A stretch of DNA of 13,502 bases from Tannerella sp. GTDB lineage: Bacteria > Bacteroidota > Bacteroidia > Bacteroidales > Tannerellaceae. The stretch covers positions 1 to 13,502 of the forward strand of contig JAITPL010000039.1 of assembly GCA_031289445.1 (NCBI GenBank). The letters are read 5' to 3'. A program made the position numbers and the translations under genes. The notes under the pieces were generated by a model that was not told where the DNA came from, searched no databases, and was given only the letters and a program-made list of their open reading frames with translations. Positions 2,259 through 13,367 of the stretch are shown piece by piece (the stretch's first letter is position 1; each line of letters begins with the position of its first letter).

Positions 2259-5200
2259 TCAGGGCTTTGGGGGTGGCGGGGGAACCAGAGAAGTTCTTCT
2301 TCGTCTGAAAATGTCTGAAAATATGGAGAAGTCCTTGCGGAACATTAAGCCTACGCCTTGACGTGTGAGTGATTTGGTGTTGTAGCGATAGAGGTCGTTT
2401 GCGTGATTGTAGGCTTTGAGGCTTATGTCGCCGGTGCGGGTCAGTTTATATTCGAGGTCGAACTCGCCTACGAAGGCATTCGATTGAATATAGTTATCCT
2501 TGTATCCGAAATTGCCGTTGAAGAGCAGGCGGTTATTGAGCAGTTGGCTCGACAGCAGCATCTCCACCTCGGTATCCTTTATGCCGTCCTGTCGCGAGCG
2601 TATGTTAGTGCCTATCTGCACTTTATCGGTGAGGGTACTGAGCAGATTCGACAGTTGCGAGGACAGCGCCGATGAAGCCACAGCGCTAAACTCGTCGCCG
2701 GTATATGTGTTGCGCGAATAATCGGGGGTATAGAACTTGTTGAGTACAAGGAGGTAAATGATTTGTCGCGTCATCATATCTTCGGTATCTATAAATGATT
2801 TGACCTGCCGTTCGAGTTCGCTGTTCGAGTTGGGCAGTTCGAGGTCGAATGAGATATCCGGATTCTGCAGCCGACCGTCCAGCTTCAGTATGCAATTAAC
2901 CGGTATTGTAGGCGTTCCTGTTTCCATTATCAGCGTTTCGTCGAGGTCTTGAATATTGGCGGCCAAATTGTACGAAGCGTTGATATCGAGGATGGCGGCC
3001 ATCGGGTCTCCGCGAAAAGACACCGTGCTGCCATCGCGAATATTAAAGCGTTTACGCACGACCTGCTGCAGGTTGAAGTTGTATGTGCCGTTGGTAATCA
3101 AGTAGTTGCCGAACAGTTGCAAATCACTGCGACTGCCGTAACTGATTTGAATATTACCGTTGCCTTCACCCCTCAGTTTGTCGCCGTCGTCGGAGTCGAT
3201 TGTTAGCTCAATCTTCGCACTGGGAGTAGCGTTTACAAGGAAGTTAAGTTGATAGTCCATGGAAGAATGACCGTTACCGTTACCGTTGATGACCGCCGTT
3301 GTATCGCCGTCGGCCGTCTGTCGATGTTCTGCGAAAGAAATGAAATCGTAGTCGTTGACCTTCGAATCGTTCATGAAATTGAAACCTACCGATGTGCCTG
3401 CTTCACAACGCGCATTGCCATCAACGAGGATATTATCTTCCGTACCTTCGATATGTGTTTGTCCGCTGGCATAGACCTGTCCGTATATCTTGGGATTGAC
3501 GGTTTGCGGAATATCATAAACCAGCAATTTTTCGGCGTTGACGTCAAGTTCATAGCTCAGGTCGCGAAAACTGTTGTGATGAAGCATGAAGTTCAGGATT
3601 CCGGTATTGTTGTTTCTGTCCCGGACGGCCGTCTGTTTTGTGCCGATGCCGTATTTATCAAGAAAGAGAGTGTCGGAAAACGAATATGAGGTATTCAGGA
3701 TATTCACTTTCATGCTGGCGTCGCGGATATAGGGATTTCCTTCTATAAAAATATCGGAGAAATTGCCGTGTAGAAGGACATGGCCGAAGCCCAATCCCTG
3801 CACGTTGCTTGCGAAGGCGCTCATATATCTTTGCACGAAAGCGAGGTTAATCTCATTCGCGTTGAAATGGATTGAGAGGCCTTGATTAGCGCCTACCGGA
3901 AAGATCTCACCGTCAACGTCTGTATATATGGAATCGTTTTTGTAGATTGACCCTAAAAGACGTATTGCCAGAATGTCGCTGTCCCATTCGCTCGACAGTT
4001 TCAGTTTTCCCTGAACGACCTGATTGAAAGAGAAATCCTGCACTTCAAGGCGTCCGCCTATCATCATGCTCCCAAGCAGGTCGCGACCGTTAACGGCGCC
4101 GGTTGCAAGTCCGCCGAATCGCAGAGCGGGAATGTTAAGTACGTCAAAGATATATGATATTTCAACATCTTTCATGTCAAGGAAAAATGTCTCTCTGGGA
4201 TCTTTCGAGATAACGCCGTTGAGATGCAGGTATTGCTCTCCTTTGGTGATATAGAAATTGTCGATGTTGATCTTGCCGTCAGTGACTGTAGCCGAGGCCG
4301 GGTCAATGTGCCAGACGGAATCTTTCATTACTATCCGCGTAGGATTTACAGTTATTTCGGTACGCAGATCGGCGCGTCCGTCTTTGTTCGCGTCTTTGGT
4401 AAACAAGGCCGAGGCGTCTATCTCCGCTTCATATTTTTCGGTCTTGTCGTTTGACCATTGCAGTTTGAGGCCTATCTTGTCGTCTCCTGCGTCGGACTTC
4501 AGGCTTAGCGCGTTATGCAGACCGTTTTTGTTGTAATGCGTTACATTCAGGTTTAGGTTAATCTTCCCGTCTTTATTATTAATGTGAATGCTTCCCTTTT
4601 CAAACTTGTTTGTTCCGATATTGAAACTTGGTATGTTTATATTGCTCAGCAGCTTGCCCGAAGCATTATCGTAACGTCCCTCGATTGTAGCCTTTTCGAG
4701 GATGGTAACAGGCAGTTTCAATGTGTTTGAAATATGTTCGGTATTGTTGATAACTATATGATAGTCAAAGATGTTTTTTTCTGTCGGCACACTGTCTTTA
4801 TGGTATGTCTCGACCAGCGAAGGCAAATATTTTCGGGTTGTAGTCAGCAGGTCGGGTAGAAGGGAGGTTAAAGAATAGCGCCCCGACAGATCTGCGTTGA
4901 TAACGTCGGAGGTGATTCTCAGACGTCTGTTTTGCGCTTCTTCCGACGATGGTTTTTCCGACGATGATGCGATGAGGACGTCTCGAATCGCGAAACTGTC
5001 AATATCTGTTCTGAAAGAGAGGTTTTTGAGCCTTATGTAACCGTCGAAATCGTCAGGATTGCTGCCGGTGAAGCTGGCATTAAGGCTCAAGGCTATTTCG
5101 GGATGCTTGAAGTTGTCGATTAGATGGAGCGTGTCGGGGCGGAAACCGTCAAGATCGGCTATTAATTCCATCTCGAACTTATCCTTGTCGTTTATCAGCA

Positions 5201-6794: not shown

Positions 6795-9554
6795 ATGGAA
6801 CAAAAACGTCATTATAAAGGCTTGACAGACCAGCAGGTTGTAGAGAGCCGCAAGATACACGGCGAAAATATTCTTACACCGCCTAAAAAGGAATCGCTAT
6901 GGTTGCTGTTCCTCGAAAAATTCACCGACCCTATCATCGTCATTCTGCTGATAGCTTTGTTGTTGTCGATTGGCGTATCCTGCCATGAGTTTTTTGCGGG
7001 ACACGGTACGCTTAGCGTCTTCTTCGAGCCGGTTGGCATCCTGATAGCCGTGTTGCTGGCTACGATTGTGGGTTTTCTGTTCGAGTTGAGCGCTAACAGA
7101 AAATTCGAGGTGCTGAACAAAGTCAACGACGACACGCTTGTTAAAGTAATACGCAATGATAATATATTTGAAATAACCAAGCAACAGGTAGTTGTAGGTG
7201 ATATTGTCATACTCGAAGCAGGCGAGGAGCTACCGGCCGACGGCGAACTGCTGGAAGCTGTCTCCATGCAAATCAACGAATCCACACTGACAGGCGAGCC
7301 GGTATGCCGAAAGACTGTCAACGCGGCAGATTTCGACGCCGAGGCTACCTATCCGTCCAATCATGTGATGAAAGGCACGACGGTAGTTGACGGGCACGGT
7401 ATTATGTGCGTCTTGAAGGTGGGCGACGCTACCGAGTATGGCAAAGTGTACGAAGGGGCGCAAATCGACAGCGGCGTAGAGACGCCTCTCAATAAACAGC
7501 TTGACAAGCTGGCCGCTTTGATTACAAAAGCAAGCTATGCTATTGCAGTCATGATAGTTGCAGGGCGTTTGATATGGTTTTTTGCGGATAACCTTGGGGC
7601 GTCGGCCGGATCGGAAGGTAATGTATGGCTTCTTTTTGGCAGTTTCCTGCTACAGACGGTCATGATTGCCGTTACCGTGATTGTGGTTGCTGTTCCCGAA
7701 GGGCTGCCGATGAGCGTTACTCTCAGTCTGGCATTGAGTATGAAGCGGATGCTGTCAACCAACAACCTCGTCCGCAAAATGCACGCATGTGAAACGATGG
7801 GCGCCGCTACCGTCATCTGCACCGATAAAACCGGTACGCTGACCCAAAATCAAATGAAAGTCTGGGATCATGATTTCTGTGATTTGAAAGATTGCATAGA
7901 CATTATATATGAAGGAATAGCCGTAAACTCGACCGCCTATCTTGATTATTCCAACCCGAACAAAATCAAGGTTTTGGGCAATCCTACCGAAGGCGCTTTG
8001 CTGTTGTGGCTTAACGAACAAGGCATCAATTACCTGCATTTGCGCGAAGAAGCGGAAGTGATTGAACAGCTGACCTTTTCGACCGAGCGCAAGTATATGG
8101 CGACTGTCGTTCATTCCCCCATCCTTGGTAAAAACATACTGTACATCAAGGGAGCGCCCGAAATCGTCATGGAACTGTGTAAGCATCCGTTTCGACAGGA
8201 AAATTCTTCCCCGCAGGCAAATGAAGATTGGAAAGCGCCCATGCATCATAAACTCCTTGAATATCAGAATAAAGCGATGCGTACACTCGGTTTCGCCTGT
8301 AAGATATTGGACGACGATAGCTCTCTGTCTCTTGCAGCCCCGCTTTCGCAGGATATTGACGCCGGATTCCTTGGCGTAGTCGCTATCTCCGACCCCGTGC
8401 GAACAGAAGCGCCCGAAGCGGTCAAAACTTGCCTGAGCGCCGGTATAGCAGTGAAAATTGTTACAGGCGATACTTCCGCAACAGCCAAAGAAATAGGGCG
8501 ACAGATAGGTCTGTGGGATAGTAACGAGCCTGATAATCATCATATTAATGGAAATGATTTTGCCGCCATGCCGGACGACGAACTGCTGAAGCGAGTGCTT
8601 GATATAAAAATCATGTCGCGCGCGCGTCCTATGGATAAACAGCGTCTGGTGCAGCTTTTGCAACAAAAAAATCAGGTTGTAGCCGTAACCGGCGACGGAA
8701 CGAACGACGCTCCGGCCTTGAACGCGGCACAAGTGGGATTGTCAATGGGCGACGGTACAAGCGTGGCCAAAGAAGCAAGCGACATAACCATTCTCGACAA
8801 CTCGTTCAGCAGCATCTCGCGCGCCGTGATGTGGGGACGCTCTCTCTATCAGAACATTCAGCGGTTTATCCTCTTTCAGATGACTATTAACGTCGCTGCC
8901 TGTATTATTGTATTGATAGGCGCATTTCTCGGCGCCGAATCCCCGCTGACCGTAACCCAGATGTTATGGGTCAATCTTATAATGGATACTTTTGCGGCTT
9001 TAGCCTTGGCCTCGCTGCCTCCCAATGCGAAAGTGATGCTTGACAAGCCCCGCAAAACAACCGACCATATTATAACACCCGCTATGGTCAAGCAGATTAT
9101 CGGCGTAGGCTTGTTTTTCGTCGTCTTGCTGTTTGCTTTGCTTCAATACTTCAAACATGCTGATATTCAAACATTAAACGATTTCAGCATTGCAGATTTA
9201 GGTCGCAGCTTTCTGAATTTTGAAGCGGGTAACGGCTTGTCGGCCTACGAGTTGTCGCTGTTTTTTACAATATTCGTTATGTTGCAGTTCTGGAACATGT
9301 TCAATGCCAAGGCTTTCATGACCGGCAAGTCGGCTTTCGCCATCCTGCACCGGTGCCGCGGATTCCTTGCTATTGCCGCTGTTATCCTCCTGGGTCAATG
9401 GCTGATTGTTACCTTTGGAGGCAGCATGTTCAATGTCGTCCCTCTAAGGCCGTCAGACTGGGGAATCGTCATCGGAATAACCTCGTTTGTGATGTGGACA
9501 GGAGAAATTTTCAGGCAAATTGAAAAATTTTTCGCCAAAAAGTTTGCAGATTAA
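6795..9554 (+). CDS. Calcium-translocating P-type ATPase, PMCA type
   Basis: This is a P2B-type ion pump that should export Ca2+ from the cytoplasm using ATP. It has 919 residues, complete for the family. Visible elements in order are: paired helices near 45-60 and 80-97; actuator motif LTGEP with TGE at 166-168; M4 PEGLP at 301-305 preceded by VAV; phosphorylation motif DKTGTLT with Asp344; nucleotide-binding KGAPE at 452-456; TGD at 557-559; hinge TGDGTNDAP at 632-640; M5 with Asn699; and M6 LWVNLIMDTFAALAL with Asn727 and Asp731. M5 has no acidic residue at the SERCA site-I position, which fits a one-calcium PMCA-like pump with site II formed by Glu302, Asn727 and Asp731. The ATG follows an exact -7 box and an A-rich leader without a Shine-Dalgarno site, normal for the phylum. 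It is divergent from tamB, with a tRNA promoter starting inside its last codons. Manganese transport cannot be excluded. Confidence 0.95.
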   Translation: MEQKRHYKGLTDQQVVESRKIHGENILTPPKKESLWLLFLEKFTDPIIVILLIALLLSIGVSCHEFFAGHGTLSVFFEPVGILIAVLLATIVGFLFELSANRKFEVLNKVNDDTLVKVIRNDNIFEITKQQVVVGDIVILEAGEELPADGELLEAVSMQINESTLTGEPVCRKTVNAADFDAEATYPSNHVMKGTTVVDGHGIMCVLKVGDATEYGKVYEGAQIDSGVETPLNKQLDKLAALITKASYAIAVMIVAGRLIWFFADNLGASAGSEGNVWLLFGSFLLQTVMIAVTVIVVAVPEGLPMSVTLSLALSMKRMLSTNNLVRKMHACETMGAATVICTDKTGTLTQNQMKVWDHDFCDLKDCIDIIYEGIAVNSTAYLDYSNPNKIKVLGNPTEGALLLWLNEQGINYLHLREEAEVIEQLTFSTERKYMATVVHSPILGKNILYIKGAPEIVMELCKHPFRQENSSPQANEDWKAPMHHKLLEYQNKAMRTLGFACKILDDDSSLSLAAPLSQDIDAGFLGVVAISDPVRTEAPEAVKTCLSAGIAVKIVTGDTSATAKEIGRQIGLWDSNEPDNHHINGNDFAAMPDDELLKRVLDIKIMSRARPMDKQRLVQLLQQKNQVVAVTGDGTNDAPALNAAQVGLSMGDGTSVAKEASDITILDNSFSSISRAVMWGRSLYQNIQRFILFQMTINVAACIIVLIGAFLGAESPLTVTQMLWVNLIMDTFAALALASLPPNAKVMLDKPRKTTDHIITPAMVKQIIGVGLFFVVLLFALLQYFKHADIQTLNDFSIADLGRSFLNFEAGNGLSAYELSLFFTIFVMLQFWNMFNAKAFMTGKSAFAILHRCRGFLAIAAVILLGQWLIVTFGGSMFNVVPLRPSDWGIVIGITSFVMWTGEIFRQIEKFFAKKFAD

Positions 9555-9573
9555 AAAATAAGTCGTACCTTTG
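9543..9573 (+). promoter_or_regulatory. Consensus Bacteroidota promoter for the tRNA genes
   Basis: TTTG (9543-9546), 19 bases, then TACCTTTG (9566-9573) matches the -33/-7 consensus exactly. Transcription should start near 9580, about 13 nt before tRNA-Gly. The -33 box lies within the last codons of the ATPase gene. Confidence 0.85.
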
Positions 9574-9927: not shown

Positions 9928-9958
9928 TTTGTGATGTCATAAATTATCCTTACCTTTG
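9928..9958 (+). promoter_or_regulatory. Consensus promoter of the rpmB operon
   Basis: TTTG (9928-9931), 19 bases, then TACCTTTG (9951-9958) is an exact match to the Bacteroidota -33/-7 consensus. The start of transcription is expected near 9965, giving a leader of about 38 nt that is A-rich and has no Shine-Dalgarno site before the rpmB ATG. Confidence 0.88.
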
Positions 9959-11157: not shown

Positions 11158-11189
11158 TTTGGCAGTTCAAAAAATTATTCGTTTCTTTG
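11158..11189 (+). promoter_or_regulatory. Probable promoter for the secreted-protein gene
   Basis: TTTG (11158-11161), 20 bases, then TTTCTTTG (11182-11189), one mismatch from TAnnTTTG. Transcription would begin near 11196. This places any coding start upstream of that point outside the transcript and favours an ATG at 11219, 11243 or 11285. Confidence 0.5.
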
Positions 11190-11284
11190 TACCCTTGGAA
11201 ATAAAATATTTAGAAATTATGATAAGGATTTTGTTAAACAGAATGAGCGATACGTCGAATCTTCGCGTACGCAGGGAGGCGCCG

Positions 11285-11878
11285 ATGAAGCCCCTCCTGG
11301 TTTGCTTATTGTTGCTTGCGGCAATAACACTTTCGGCGGCAGACGCCAAAAGGTACGAGGTCAAGACCGCTATTATCAAAAAAGAGATCGTGGCCATGGG
11401 AATGAAGCTTGCGGCGACTACTTACTTTGACGACTACGGAAAGAATGAGGCCGCAGAGATAACTATAAAGGACGGTATCACTACCGGCGTGGACAAGCAC
11501 ACCCGAACTATTATGACGGATTCGACTGTGCTTAACATTGACCTGGACTTAAAGGTGGCGACGAAAATTCCGCTACCGCAGAAGCCGGTCAATTACTTGG
11601 CCCTCACCCCCGAAATCATGGAGCAATTCAAGATGAAAGAGGCCGGTGAGAGTGAGATTGCAGGCAAGCCCTGCAAGAAATATACCTTGGAGATGACGCA
11701 GATGGGCCAGAAGATTACCATCACGACGCACGTGTGGAGAGGAATAAGCTTGAAGACCGAAACGGTTGCCAACGGAATGACTGTTGCGACCGAGACGGCG
11801 ACCGAGATTCAGGAAGATGCGTCTGTCTCGTCCGAGAAATTTGTTTTACCCGAAGGAACTGTAATCAAATCGTTATGA
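11285..11878 (+). CDS. Predicted secreted protein of unknown function (LolA/DUF4412-like)
   Basis: From ATG 11285 the product is 197 residues. A signal peptide MKPLLVCLLLLAAITLSAADA ends at an AxA-type cleavage site, so the mature protein should be periplasmic or exported. The cysteine at 7 is not in a lipobox. The rest is beta-rich and hydrophilic with a repeated style of short strands. It includes AGKPCKKYTLEM (126-137), THVWRGISLKTE (148-159) and a final LPEGTVI. This layout resembles DUF4412/LolA-like outer-membrane-associated proteins, but no motif is decisive. GGGAGG lies 5-10 bases upstream. In-frame ATGs at 11219 and 11243 would lengthen the region before the hydrophobic core, which is less typical. 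The stop overlaps the start of the next gene (ATGA), so the two are probably translated together. Confidence 0.8.
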   Translation: MKPLLVCLLLLAAITLSAADAKRYEVKTAIIKKEIVAMGMKLAATTYFDDYGKNEAAEITIKDGITTGVDKHTRTIMTDSTVLNIDLDLKVATKIPLPQKPVNYLALTPEIMEQFKMKEAGESEIAGKPCKKYTLEMTQMGQKITITTHVWRGISLKTETVANGMTVATETATEIQEDASVSSEKFVLPEGTVIKSL

Positions 11879-12105
11879 AAATAAAACCCCTTGATAATAT
11901 GGATAAAAGTTTAAACCGAAATATTCTAATTATAGTGGTTATAGCCGCTGGTTTTAGCGCCAGACCCATCAGGAAATTTTTTTCATCCATATTCTTACCC
12001 GATAATGGAATAGAGAATGTGATAGTTTACCTTATTACTTGGCTTACTGCTGTTGGTATTTGGTTTCTTGTGCTTTTATTCATCAAAAAGCGCCTTAAAA
12101 GATGA
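11875..12105 (+). CDS. Small two-helix membrane protein, unknown function
   Basis: A 76-residue protein begins MKIKPLDNMDKSLNRNILII. It has two hydrophobic segments, around residues 18-29 and 49-70, and a basic end KKRLKR, which suggests an inner-membrane hairpin with both ends in the cytoplasm. I do not recognise a family. Its ATG overlaps the TGA of the secreted-protein gene in the form ATGA, a sign of translational coupling; ATG 11899 is an alternative start. Its base composition is more AT-rich than its upstream partner. It ends 8 bases before the 3' boundary of the proposed leftward RNA gene. Confidence 0.65.
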   Translation: MKIKPLDNMDKSLNRNILIIVVIAAGFSARPIRKFFSSIFLPDNGIENVIVYLITWLTAVGIWFLVLLFIKKRLKR

Positions 12106-12112
12106 CTGCGAC

Positions 12113-12246
12113 AGGATTTTAGGATGTGGTCGCCATTGTCCACACAGCTTGTTACACCGAGATTATGCCTCTCGGTAAAGGGCTATGTATGAATATCAAT
12201 ACAAGTGATGTGCAATTGCTGCCCGACTGAAAAAAATCCTTGCCTT
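12113..12246 (-). ncRNA. Candidate structured small RNA, possibly 6S/Bacteroidales-1-like
   Basis: A leftward transcript of about 134 nt is predicted just after a consensus promoter. Its two ends can pair in a fully nested order: AGGATTTT (12240-12233) with AAAATCCT (12120-12113), GTCG (12227-12224) with CGAC (12132-12129), TTGCACA (12215-12209) with TGTG (12146-12143) and CAA (12138-12136) around a bulge, and CTTGT (12205-12201) with ACAAG (12152-12148). An inner 7-bp hairpin ACCGAGA/TCTCGGT spans 12176-12156. An interrupted long hairpin with an internal side hairpin resembles 6S-type RNA. The family assignment is only a suggestion. The 3' end is not fixed by a strong terminator. It has no credible reading frame. 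Confidence 0.55.
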
Positions 12247-12252
12247 ATCTTA

Positions 12253-12283
12253 CAAAGTTACGAAATATTTTTGAATTGTCAAA
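12253..12283 (-). promoter_or_regulatory. Consensus leftward promoter with no protein gene after it
   Basis: On the minus strand TTTG (12283-12280), 19 bases, then TAACTTTG (12260-12253) fits the Bacteroidota consensus exactly. Transcription would start near 12246. Its -33 box coincides with the T tract of the ARPP-1 terminator, so one unit ends where the other begins. Confidence 0.75.
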
Positions 12284-12315
12284 AACGGCAAGCCGTTTTC
12301 AGGCTTGCCGTTTTC
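12281..12315. terminator. Bidirectional intrinsic terminator
   Basis: AAAACGGCAAGCC (12282-12294) pairs with GGCTTGCCGTTTT (12302-12314) around a 7-base loop, a perfect 13-bp stem. Read leftward it ends in TTTTTG, suiting the end of the ARPP-1-type gene 66 bases upstream. Read rightward it ends in TTTT and could stop the 11285-12105 unit. Confidence 0.88.
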
Positions 12316-12380
12316 ACTTCCTCGTCGAAAACAATAGCTTCATCGCGCGGGATAAACAGATGGGAGAACATTGTAGCAAC

Positions 12381-13367
12381 CTACCATGGTCTGTTACTGC
12401 GATAATCGTGTCTTCTGCCGTTAACTTCCAATCCGTCGGTGTTATAAACCGAAGTATGAACTTTTTCTTTCCTGCCTTCATCCTCATGGTAGGTCTTGAA
12501 AAGGATGCTTCGAGAGGTTTCGTAACGCCGTTCGAGAGTTATCTCTCCTGTTTTGGATACATTTTCCCGACCGCTCTTGGCTTCGATGATGAAGTTTTTC
12601 ACATCTTCTGCCGACGGAATTCTGTAATCCAGCCTTCCGTCATACTTTGAAAATGCCTCATTTGCAGCCGATTCGAGCAGTTTGTCGCGCAGTTTGTCGC
12701 GCAGTTTGCCGAACAGCTCGGCGCTTCCGAAATTCTCTACCGTCGAAATTCTGCCATTGATGCTGAACGCAATTCCTGTTATGCCCGATTTCCTGTCAAA
12801 GGCAGGCCGTATGGCATCAAGGTACTCTTTCACAGAGTTTTGCAGGTTTTCGTTATCCAGGGTCAGTTGCAGGCTCGACGCCGATTCCCGACTTCTCACC
12901 TCACTGCCCAAGGCCATACTTGCATTTCTCTGATAACACGCCACTTCGTCCCAGACCTCACTCTGGCTTTCGCGGTAACGGCTCGCAATCTTCAGCTTCT
13001 CGTCGCTCAGCATCTTTTTCGACGCCGAGAAATACGTTGCATCCTCCCGCCCGCGTTGATGCCAGCGGCTTTGCTCCACGCAAAACGACTTGAGCGGAAC
13101 GTTCCTGCTCGCGGGTTTCAGAATCACGTCCGCCGCCATTGTACGATCCTGACGACCGCCTTTCACAATGTCGCCGGCCATCACGAACACATACCGATCC
13201 GACTTGTTGTCAATCATCAACTCGCCCACATCCCCTGTCTCGTGCAAGACCGTCAGTCCGCTGTCCATAGCCTCTTCGAGAGTCATGTAGTTTTCCGTCA
13301 AACGGTTTTTCCCCTCAATAAGGTAAACCGCCAAATTCCTGTAAATAATTAAATCTCTATCAATCAT
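12381..13367 (-). CDS. ARPP-1/DUF6569-type domain protein
   Basis: The product is 328 residues with no signal peptide or membrane helix, so it is probably cytoplasmic. The segment YVFVMAGDIVKGGRQDR (59-75) followed by DVILKP (80-85) and FCVEQSRW (95-102) is the conserved core I associate with ARPP-1 (ARG and rhodanese-phosphatase associated protein, DUF6569). That family is named for genomic links to ADP-ribosylglycohydrolase and phosphatase genes in nucleotide- or conflict-related systems; its activity is unknown to me. The middle (115-190) is charged and helical. Residues 221-230 contain a duplicated LRDK. The ATG at 13365-13367 follows a near-perfect promoter bracketed by two palindromes, suggesting regulated expression from a single-gene unit. 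Its 3' end is closed by the hairpin at 12281-12315. No partner gene is visible inside the window. I am fairly sure of the family and unsure of any role. Confidence 0.8.
   Translation of the reverse strand: MIDRDLIIYRNLAVYLIEGKNRLTENYMTLEEAMDSGLTVLHETGDVGELMIDNKSDRYVFVMAGDIVKGGRQDRTMAADVILKPASRNVPLKSFCVEQSRWHQRGREDATYFSASKKMLSDEKLKIASRYRESQSEVWDEVACYQRNASMALGSEVRSRESASSLQLTLDNENLQNSVKEYLDAIRPAFDRKSGITGIAFSINGRISTVENFGSAELFGKLRDKLRDKLLESAANEAFSKYDGRLDYRIPSAEDVKNFIIEAKSGRENVSKTGEITLERRYETSRSILFKTYHEDEGRKEKVHTSVYNTDGLEVNGRRHDYRSNRPW
12677..12710. repeat. In-frame 12-bp tandem repeat inside the ARPP-1-type gene
   Basis: GCAGTTTGTCGC occurs twice in a row and is followed by a partial third unit GCAGTTTGCC. 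In the protein this gives LRDKLRDKLLE in a predicted helix. Multiples of 12 bases keep the frame, so copy number could vary without breaking the gene. Confidence 0.8.

Follow-up and report, generated by a model that had tools for sequence, protein, structure and literature searches.

In Bacteroides thetaiotaomicron, 124 intergenic and 78 antisense RNA candidates have been described, and requiring a terminator reduces the intergenic candidates from 124 to 49 high-confidence small RNAs (sRNAs), 27 of which are strain-specific (PMC7366714). The primary promoter consensus of the phylum consists of a -33 box, TTTG, and a -7 box, TAnnTTTG, and random promoters may account for part of the antisense transcription (PMC7366714). 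The locus analysed here lies in a window (the whole stretch of DNA under study) of 13,502 nucleotides from a Tannerella sp. genome of 1.68 Mb that is 61% complete, and resembles the strain-specific RNAs of B. thetaiotaomicron in its sigma-ABfr-type promoter, in being noncoding and in being unconserved (PMC7366714). It differs in that those RNAs are transcripts with mapped starts, whereas the candidate is known from sequence alone, and in that the high-confidence RNAs have an intrinsic terminator, which we did not find for the candidate (PMC7366714). The interpretation of the site as a small RNA gene, put forward in a sequence-only reading of the window, is partly supported by our analysis. The features involved are the following:

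11159-11878, plus strand: conserved hypothetical protein, 239 aa from a TTG (start uncertain), the upstream gene of the rightward unit
11875-12105, plus strand: orphan ORF of 76 aa, whose ATG overlaps the upstream stop; looks membrane-spanning
12108-12246, minus strand: body of the proposed noncoding transcript, placed from the promoter
12113-12240, minus strand: nested hairpin predicted by the folding model
12113-12120 with 12233-12240, minus strand: closing stem of the predicted fold, 8 bp
12135-12138 with 12213-12216, minus strand: stem of the predicted fold, 4 bp
12141-12148 with 12182-12189, minus strand: middle stem of the predicted fold, 8 bp with G-U
12156-12162 with 12170-12176, minus strand: inner hairpin of the predicted fold, 7 bp
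12253-12283, minus strand: sigma-ABfr-type promoter, with TTTG (12283-12280), a 19-base spacer and TAACTTTG (12260-12253)
12282-12314, both strands: perfect 13-bp hairpin with A/T tracts on both sides, a putative two-way terminator
12381-13367, minus strand: ARPP-1 domain protein (PF20208, E 1.2e-52)
13455-13424, minus strand: consensus promoter of the ARPP-1 gene, from the window promoter scan

The convergent gap of 275 bases proposed previously was confirmed as 12106-12380, from the stop of the 76-aa ORF to the stop of the ARPP-1 gene. On its left side, the 239-aa protein matched no Pfam family and its gene was matched in 12 of 40 congeners. The 76-aa ORF is hydrophobic with a basic C-terminal tail; it found itself as the sole match among about 5.8 billion proteins, and gave weak matches (E 0.006-0.09) in 7 of 80 other genomes. 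On the right side, ARPP-1 has a patchy distribution, being found in one of 60 relatives (G003).

As claimed, a leftward consensus promoter, TTTG-N19-TAACTTTG, is read on the minus strand at 12283-12253. Scanning the window for TTTG and TAnnTTTG with spacers of 18-20 bases, using 200 shuffles as control, gave four consensus sites, compared with an average of 0.19 in the shuffles. The three besides that at 12283-12253 precede the tRNA cluster (9593), the L28 gene (10003) and the ARPP-1 gene. In the tRNA cluster, a gene for tRNA-Gly and two for tRNA-Leu stand in succession after the promoter at 9543-9573 (plus strand); the L28 gene comes next and has a promoter of its own at 9928-9958 (plus strand). 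When the gap itself was shuffled, 8 of 1000 shuffles held a consensus promoter. Genome-wide, the form with the 19-base spacer occurs at 54 sites, compared with 5 for the reversed pattern. A scan for sigma-70-type promoters did not list the 12283-12253 site, as expected for a promoter of another type.

We took the flanks of 30 of the 54 genome sites, 29 of them other than the site at 12283-12253. In this census, which had no random control, 19 of the 29 sites are followed within 300 nt by an ORF that starts with ATG and has at least 70 aa, and three more are closely followed by a tRNA, bringing the sites with an ORF or tRNA to 22 of 29. The remaining 7 of 29 have neither by these criteria, and three of those seven stand opposite a long ORF. 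In addition, 5 of the 19 ORF-bearing sites (L071 at 2481, L079, L085, the plus-strand site of L092, and L100) overlap an ORF of at least 100 aa, and some of these five may be chance matches. Sites of such quality therefore sometimes arise by chance. Taken together, the enrichment and the census suggest that the promoter at 12283-12253 is probably real, and that an orphan site of this kind is not unique in the genome. At the level of sequence the candidate thus has the promoter of its own expected of a canonical Bacteroidota intergenic sRNA gene. Rfam searches on 11 of the census loci, including L098, which is the 12283-12253 site, gave no match.

At the perfect hairpin of 12282-12314, stretches of 60 nt from one and the other strand fold at -24.8 and -22.7 kcal/mol. 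The leftward T tract of this hairpin extends into the -33 box, in agreement with the proposal that the box is built into this tract. From its sequence, the hairpin could end both the leftward ARPP-1 transcript and the rightward unit. A terminator scan found none on the plus strand between 12106 and 12281, so the rightward mRNA would run to about 12314, and its 3' UTR would consequently be fully complementary to a leftward RNA starting at 12246. That start was placed about 7 bases past the -7 box.

Consistent with the earlier statement that no protein gene needs this promoter, the only minus-strand ORF of at least 20 aa that overlaps the body is one of 38 aa from a GTG, which starts about 110 bases downstream. 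The description of the site as a compact insulated gene is not supported on the 3' side, since the terminator scan found no intrinsic terminator on the minus strand near 12108. In a scan of T-rich tails from 12250 to 11500, no hairpin surpassed -1.4 kcal/mol until 11682. An intrinsic terminator, which characterises the high-confidence Bacteroidota sRNA set, was therefore not found at the proposed 3' end. This silence is weak evidence on two counts: the scan also misses the hairpin at 12282-12314, probably by counting its T tract into the stem, and asking for a terminator leaves just 49 of the 124 candidates of B. thetaiotaomicron (PMC7366714).

The same reading had drawn a fully nested pairing of 8, 4, 7 and 5 bp plus a 7-bp inner hairpin. 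The folding model recovers the 8-bp and 4-bp stems, the middle stem (8 bp when a G-U pair is included) and the inner 7-bp hairpin, but not the 5-bp helix as one helix; three 2-bp pieces are predicted in its place. The model gives probabilities of 1.0 to the closing stem and to the inner hairpin, and 0.54 to a two-pair stem near 12224. A competing pairing of GCGAC with GTCGC (12108-12112 with 12129-12133) had also been suggested; the two sequences are present, but the alternative fold is not competitive. In the 139-nt RNA its helix has a probability of 0.0, and its energy is -31.3 compared with -38.4 kcal/mol, about 7 worse; the probability of the helix rises to 0.12 if the RNA extends to 12000.

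As for the strength of the fold, 12100-12246 folds at -38.4 kcal/mol (z -1.65), a value equalled or bettered by 13 of 200 shuffles, and the opposite strand folds comparably (z -1.55). Among minus-strand stretches of the window, 52 of 268 fold equally well, and among those matched for GC 5 of 103 do; the stretches overlap one another, and the site of the candidate may be among them. The GC-matched figure puts the fold in the better tail, as expected of a structured RNA. Overall, the folding model does not clearly place the fold beyond chance.

The likeness to 6S or Bacteroidales-1 RNA raised for the candidate found no support. With all Rfam families, no match at cut-off was obtained in the gap. 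Nine matches, none of them to 6S or Bacteroidales-1, fell below cut-off, led by matches to the hairpin at 12282-12314. One of them, BTnc060 on the plus strand, scored 25.5 bits where the cut-off is 228.9; it owes its score to this hairpin plus AT-rich sequence and was rejected. The DapZ match falls on the same hairpin. Neither 6S (RF00013) nor 6S-Flavo (RF01685) reached its gathering score, and both are absent among the nine weak matches. RF00013 gave no match in the 41 genomes searched, with 5 of 14 control genomes positive, so this model may miss 6S RNAs in the group searched. Bacteroidales-1 (RF01693), for which the Rfam line reads '6S-Bacteroidales RNA suggested', had no match in the window at its gathering score of 60 bits; it is over cut-off in 31 of 61 genomes, including that of the window, whose full-length copy lies on another contig (G000:C102:7064-7245, equivalent to L035 1501-1682; 135.3 bits). 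Together with its promoters and its relatives, this gene would put the genome among the Bacteroidales.

We also built a covariance model, R1, from the single body sequence entered twice; none of 12 Bacteroidales-1 loci (of 30 fetched) was matched by it. Bacteroidales-1 RNA has a long-hairpin shape, and its size is broadly similar to that of the candidate (the model has 179 positions); the two differ in that no match links them and that the genome's own copy sits on another contig. We thus give almost no credence to a divergent 6S or Bacteroidales-1 RNA at this site: the general long-hairpin shape is all that speaks for it, while the Rfam result, the Bacteroidales-1 gene elsewhere in the genome and the failure of R1 on all 12 loci have already largely refuted it.

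The homolog searches covered one genome per species. By BLAST at E 0.01, the body (12100-12262) matched none of 40 congeners. The R1 searches used the stricter filters of Infernal, with which weak matches are lost, and a single-sequence model limits sensitivity. Across the 40 congeners R1 had one match (G026, E 0.81), which we attribute to chance. In 122 family genomes, congeners included, it had one match (G488, E 0.004), located inside an ORF resembling an efflux-pump subunit and with many pairs broken, which we likewise ascribe to chance over 123 genomes. In a BLAST search of 392 other genomes of the order, with at most two candidates per genome scored, the matches listed were of only 19-24 bases, in six genomes.

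BLAST with 12090-12290 gave matches in 6 of 60 relatives, confined to the box region. Five of them fall within 12250-12284 and that in G053 covers 12236-12272; all six overlap the -7 box without any of them reaching the remainder of the body. Five of the six matches are on the minus strand, and every one of these relatives has a TAnnTTTG box that can be made out by eye. A longer query, 11871-12420, against the relatives' loci returned the same six plus two weak matches (22 and 25 bases, E 0.31). Phages and plasmids gave no BLAST match to 11880-12281, and one exact pattern searched in viral contigs found none. No convincing homolog was therefore found in the genomes searched, and with it none of the compensatory changes that mark a conserved structured RNA.

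These results bear on the possibility that the site encodes a dedicated, stable, intergenic sRNA of about 140 nt, a lineage-specific and trans-acting nested hairpin. Such an RNA would have a strong promoter, a long nested fold whose closing stem and inner hairpin are predicted with probability 1.0, and no ORF of note; in B. thetaiotaomicron, too, the majority of the 124 intergenic candidates have no predicted terminator (PMC7366714). However, no terminator was found, the fold is not beyond that of shuffles, and no convincing homolog, hence no covariation, was obtained in 40 congeners. We hold this possibility to be doubtful, and give more weight to noise or a mild antisense effect than to a dedicated structured RNA.

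How the gap arose was considered from the neighbourhoods of the flanking genes in relatives. In a metagenome-assembled Tannerella sp. relative (L058) the 239-aa gene is present with 88% identity, and next to it comes a leftward gene whose product resembles a DNA methyltransferase, as judged by its sequence. This gene (4873-6483 of L058, minus strand) occupies the place of the gap, and at about 4810-4855 the start of the DNA-methyltransferase-like gene is, by eye, repeated as if duplicated. The promoter string at locus L042 of genome G021 is identical to that of L058, and the two may be one genome. In G003, the one relative of 60 with ARPP-1, other leftward ORFs lie behind ARPP-1, and the gap there has no match to the consensus promoter. 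Since in the two relatives whose neighbourhoods were compared (L058 and L039) the flanking genes have different neighbours, the gap looks, from these sequences, like a young junction.

The promoter might also be a relict of a lost leftward gene, with the gap as a rearrangement scar. This would agree with the DNA-methyltransferase-like gene after the 239-aa gene in L058 and with the other leftward ORFs behind ARPP-1 in G003. Against it, there is no recognisable gene remnant, 11880-12281 is unmatched in phages and plasmids, and 12100-12262 is unmatched in 40 congeners. We regard a relict promoter as unlikely.

The type I toxin-antitoxin pairs txpA/RatA and bsrG/SR4 have antitoxins that overlap the 3' end of the toxin mRNA, and toxins of this type are usually shorter than 76 aa. 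The antisense antitoxin of the yonT/SR6 pair likewise overlaps the 3' end of its toxin mRNA (PMC5848175). The candidate would resemble these three pairs in layout, with an antisense RNA converging on a small hydrophobic ORF and covering its 3' end, and differs from them in that there is no homology and that its 76-aa ORF is possibly not a gene. By analogy, the 76-aa ORF could be a membrane toxin and the leftward RNA its 3'-overlapping antisense antitoxin. The convergent layout and the overlap with the proposed 3' UTR would fit if both units are transcribed as we propose, and the ORF has the hydrophobicity, the basic tail and the orphan distribution that such a toxin might show. Yet it is long for such a toxin, it finds itself alone among proteins, and its matches in 7 of 80 genomes are weak. 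Its ATG, which overlaps the stop of the gene before it, points to an ordinary downstream ORF or to no gene at all. We therefore consider a toxin-antitoxin pair improbable. The boldest reading, a previously unrecorded type I pair coupled through the fusion of the -33 box with the shared terminator, seems just as improbable.

On balance, we lean, by a narrow preference, towards a promoter that is used and makes a leftward noncoding transcript with no fixed end, overlapping the rightward 3' region. The sigma-ABfr-type promoter at 12283-12253 would start this transcript near 12246, and the transcript would be confined to the source species or a close lineage. Since no intrinsic terminator was detected, it may fade out or be ended by Rho past 12108. 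The rightward unit would comprise the 239-aa protein and the 76-aa ORF, with a 3' UTR fully complementary to the leftward transcript. Collision of transcription and RNA duplex formation in the shared 3' region could then lower or trim the rightward mRNA, an effect that would be mild at most; equally, the promoter could be an orphan that has no effect at all. The promoter sequence and its enrichment, the lack of a CDS of note and the lack of homologs in the genomes searched are the computed parts of this explanation, to which it adds, as proposals, transcription from the promoter, the place where the transcript ends, the 3' UTR of the rightward unit and whatever effect there may be.

If transcribed, the candidate would add another lineage-specific RNA, antisense or intergenic, to a kind known by dozens in B. 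thetaiotaomicron (PMC7366714). A clean promoter with no conserved product would also be a test case for gauging what share of the transcription of the phylum is functional.
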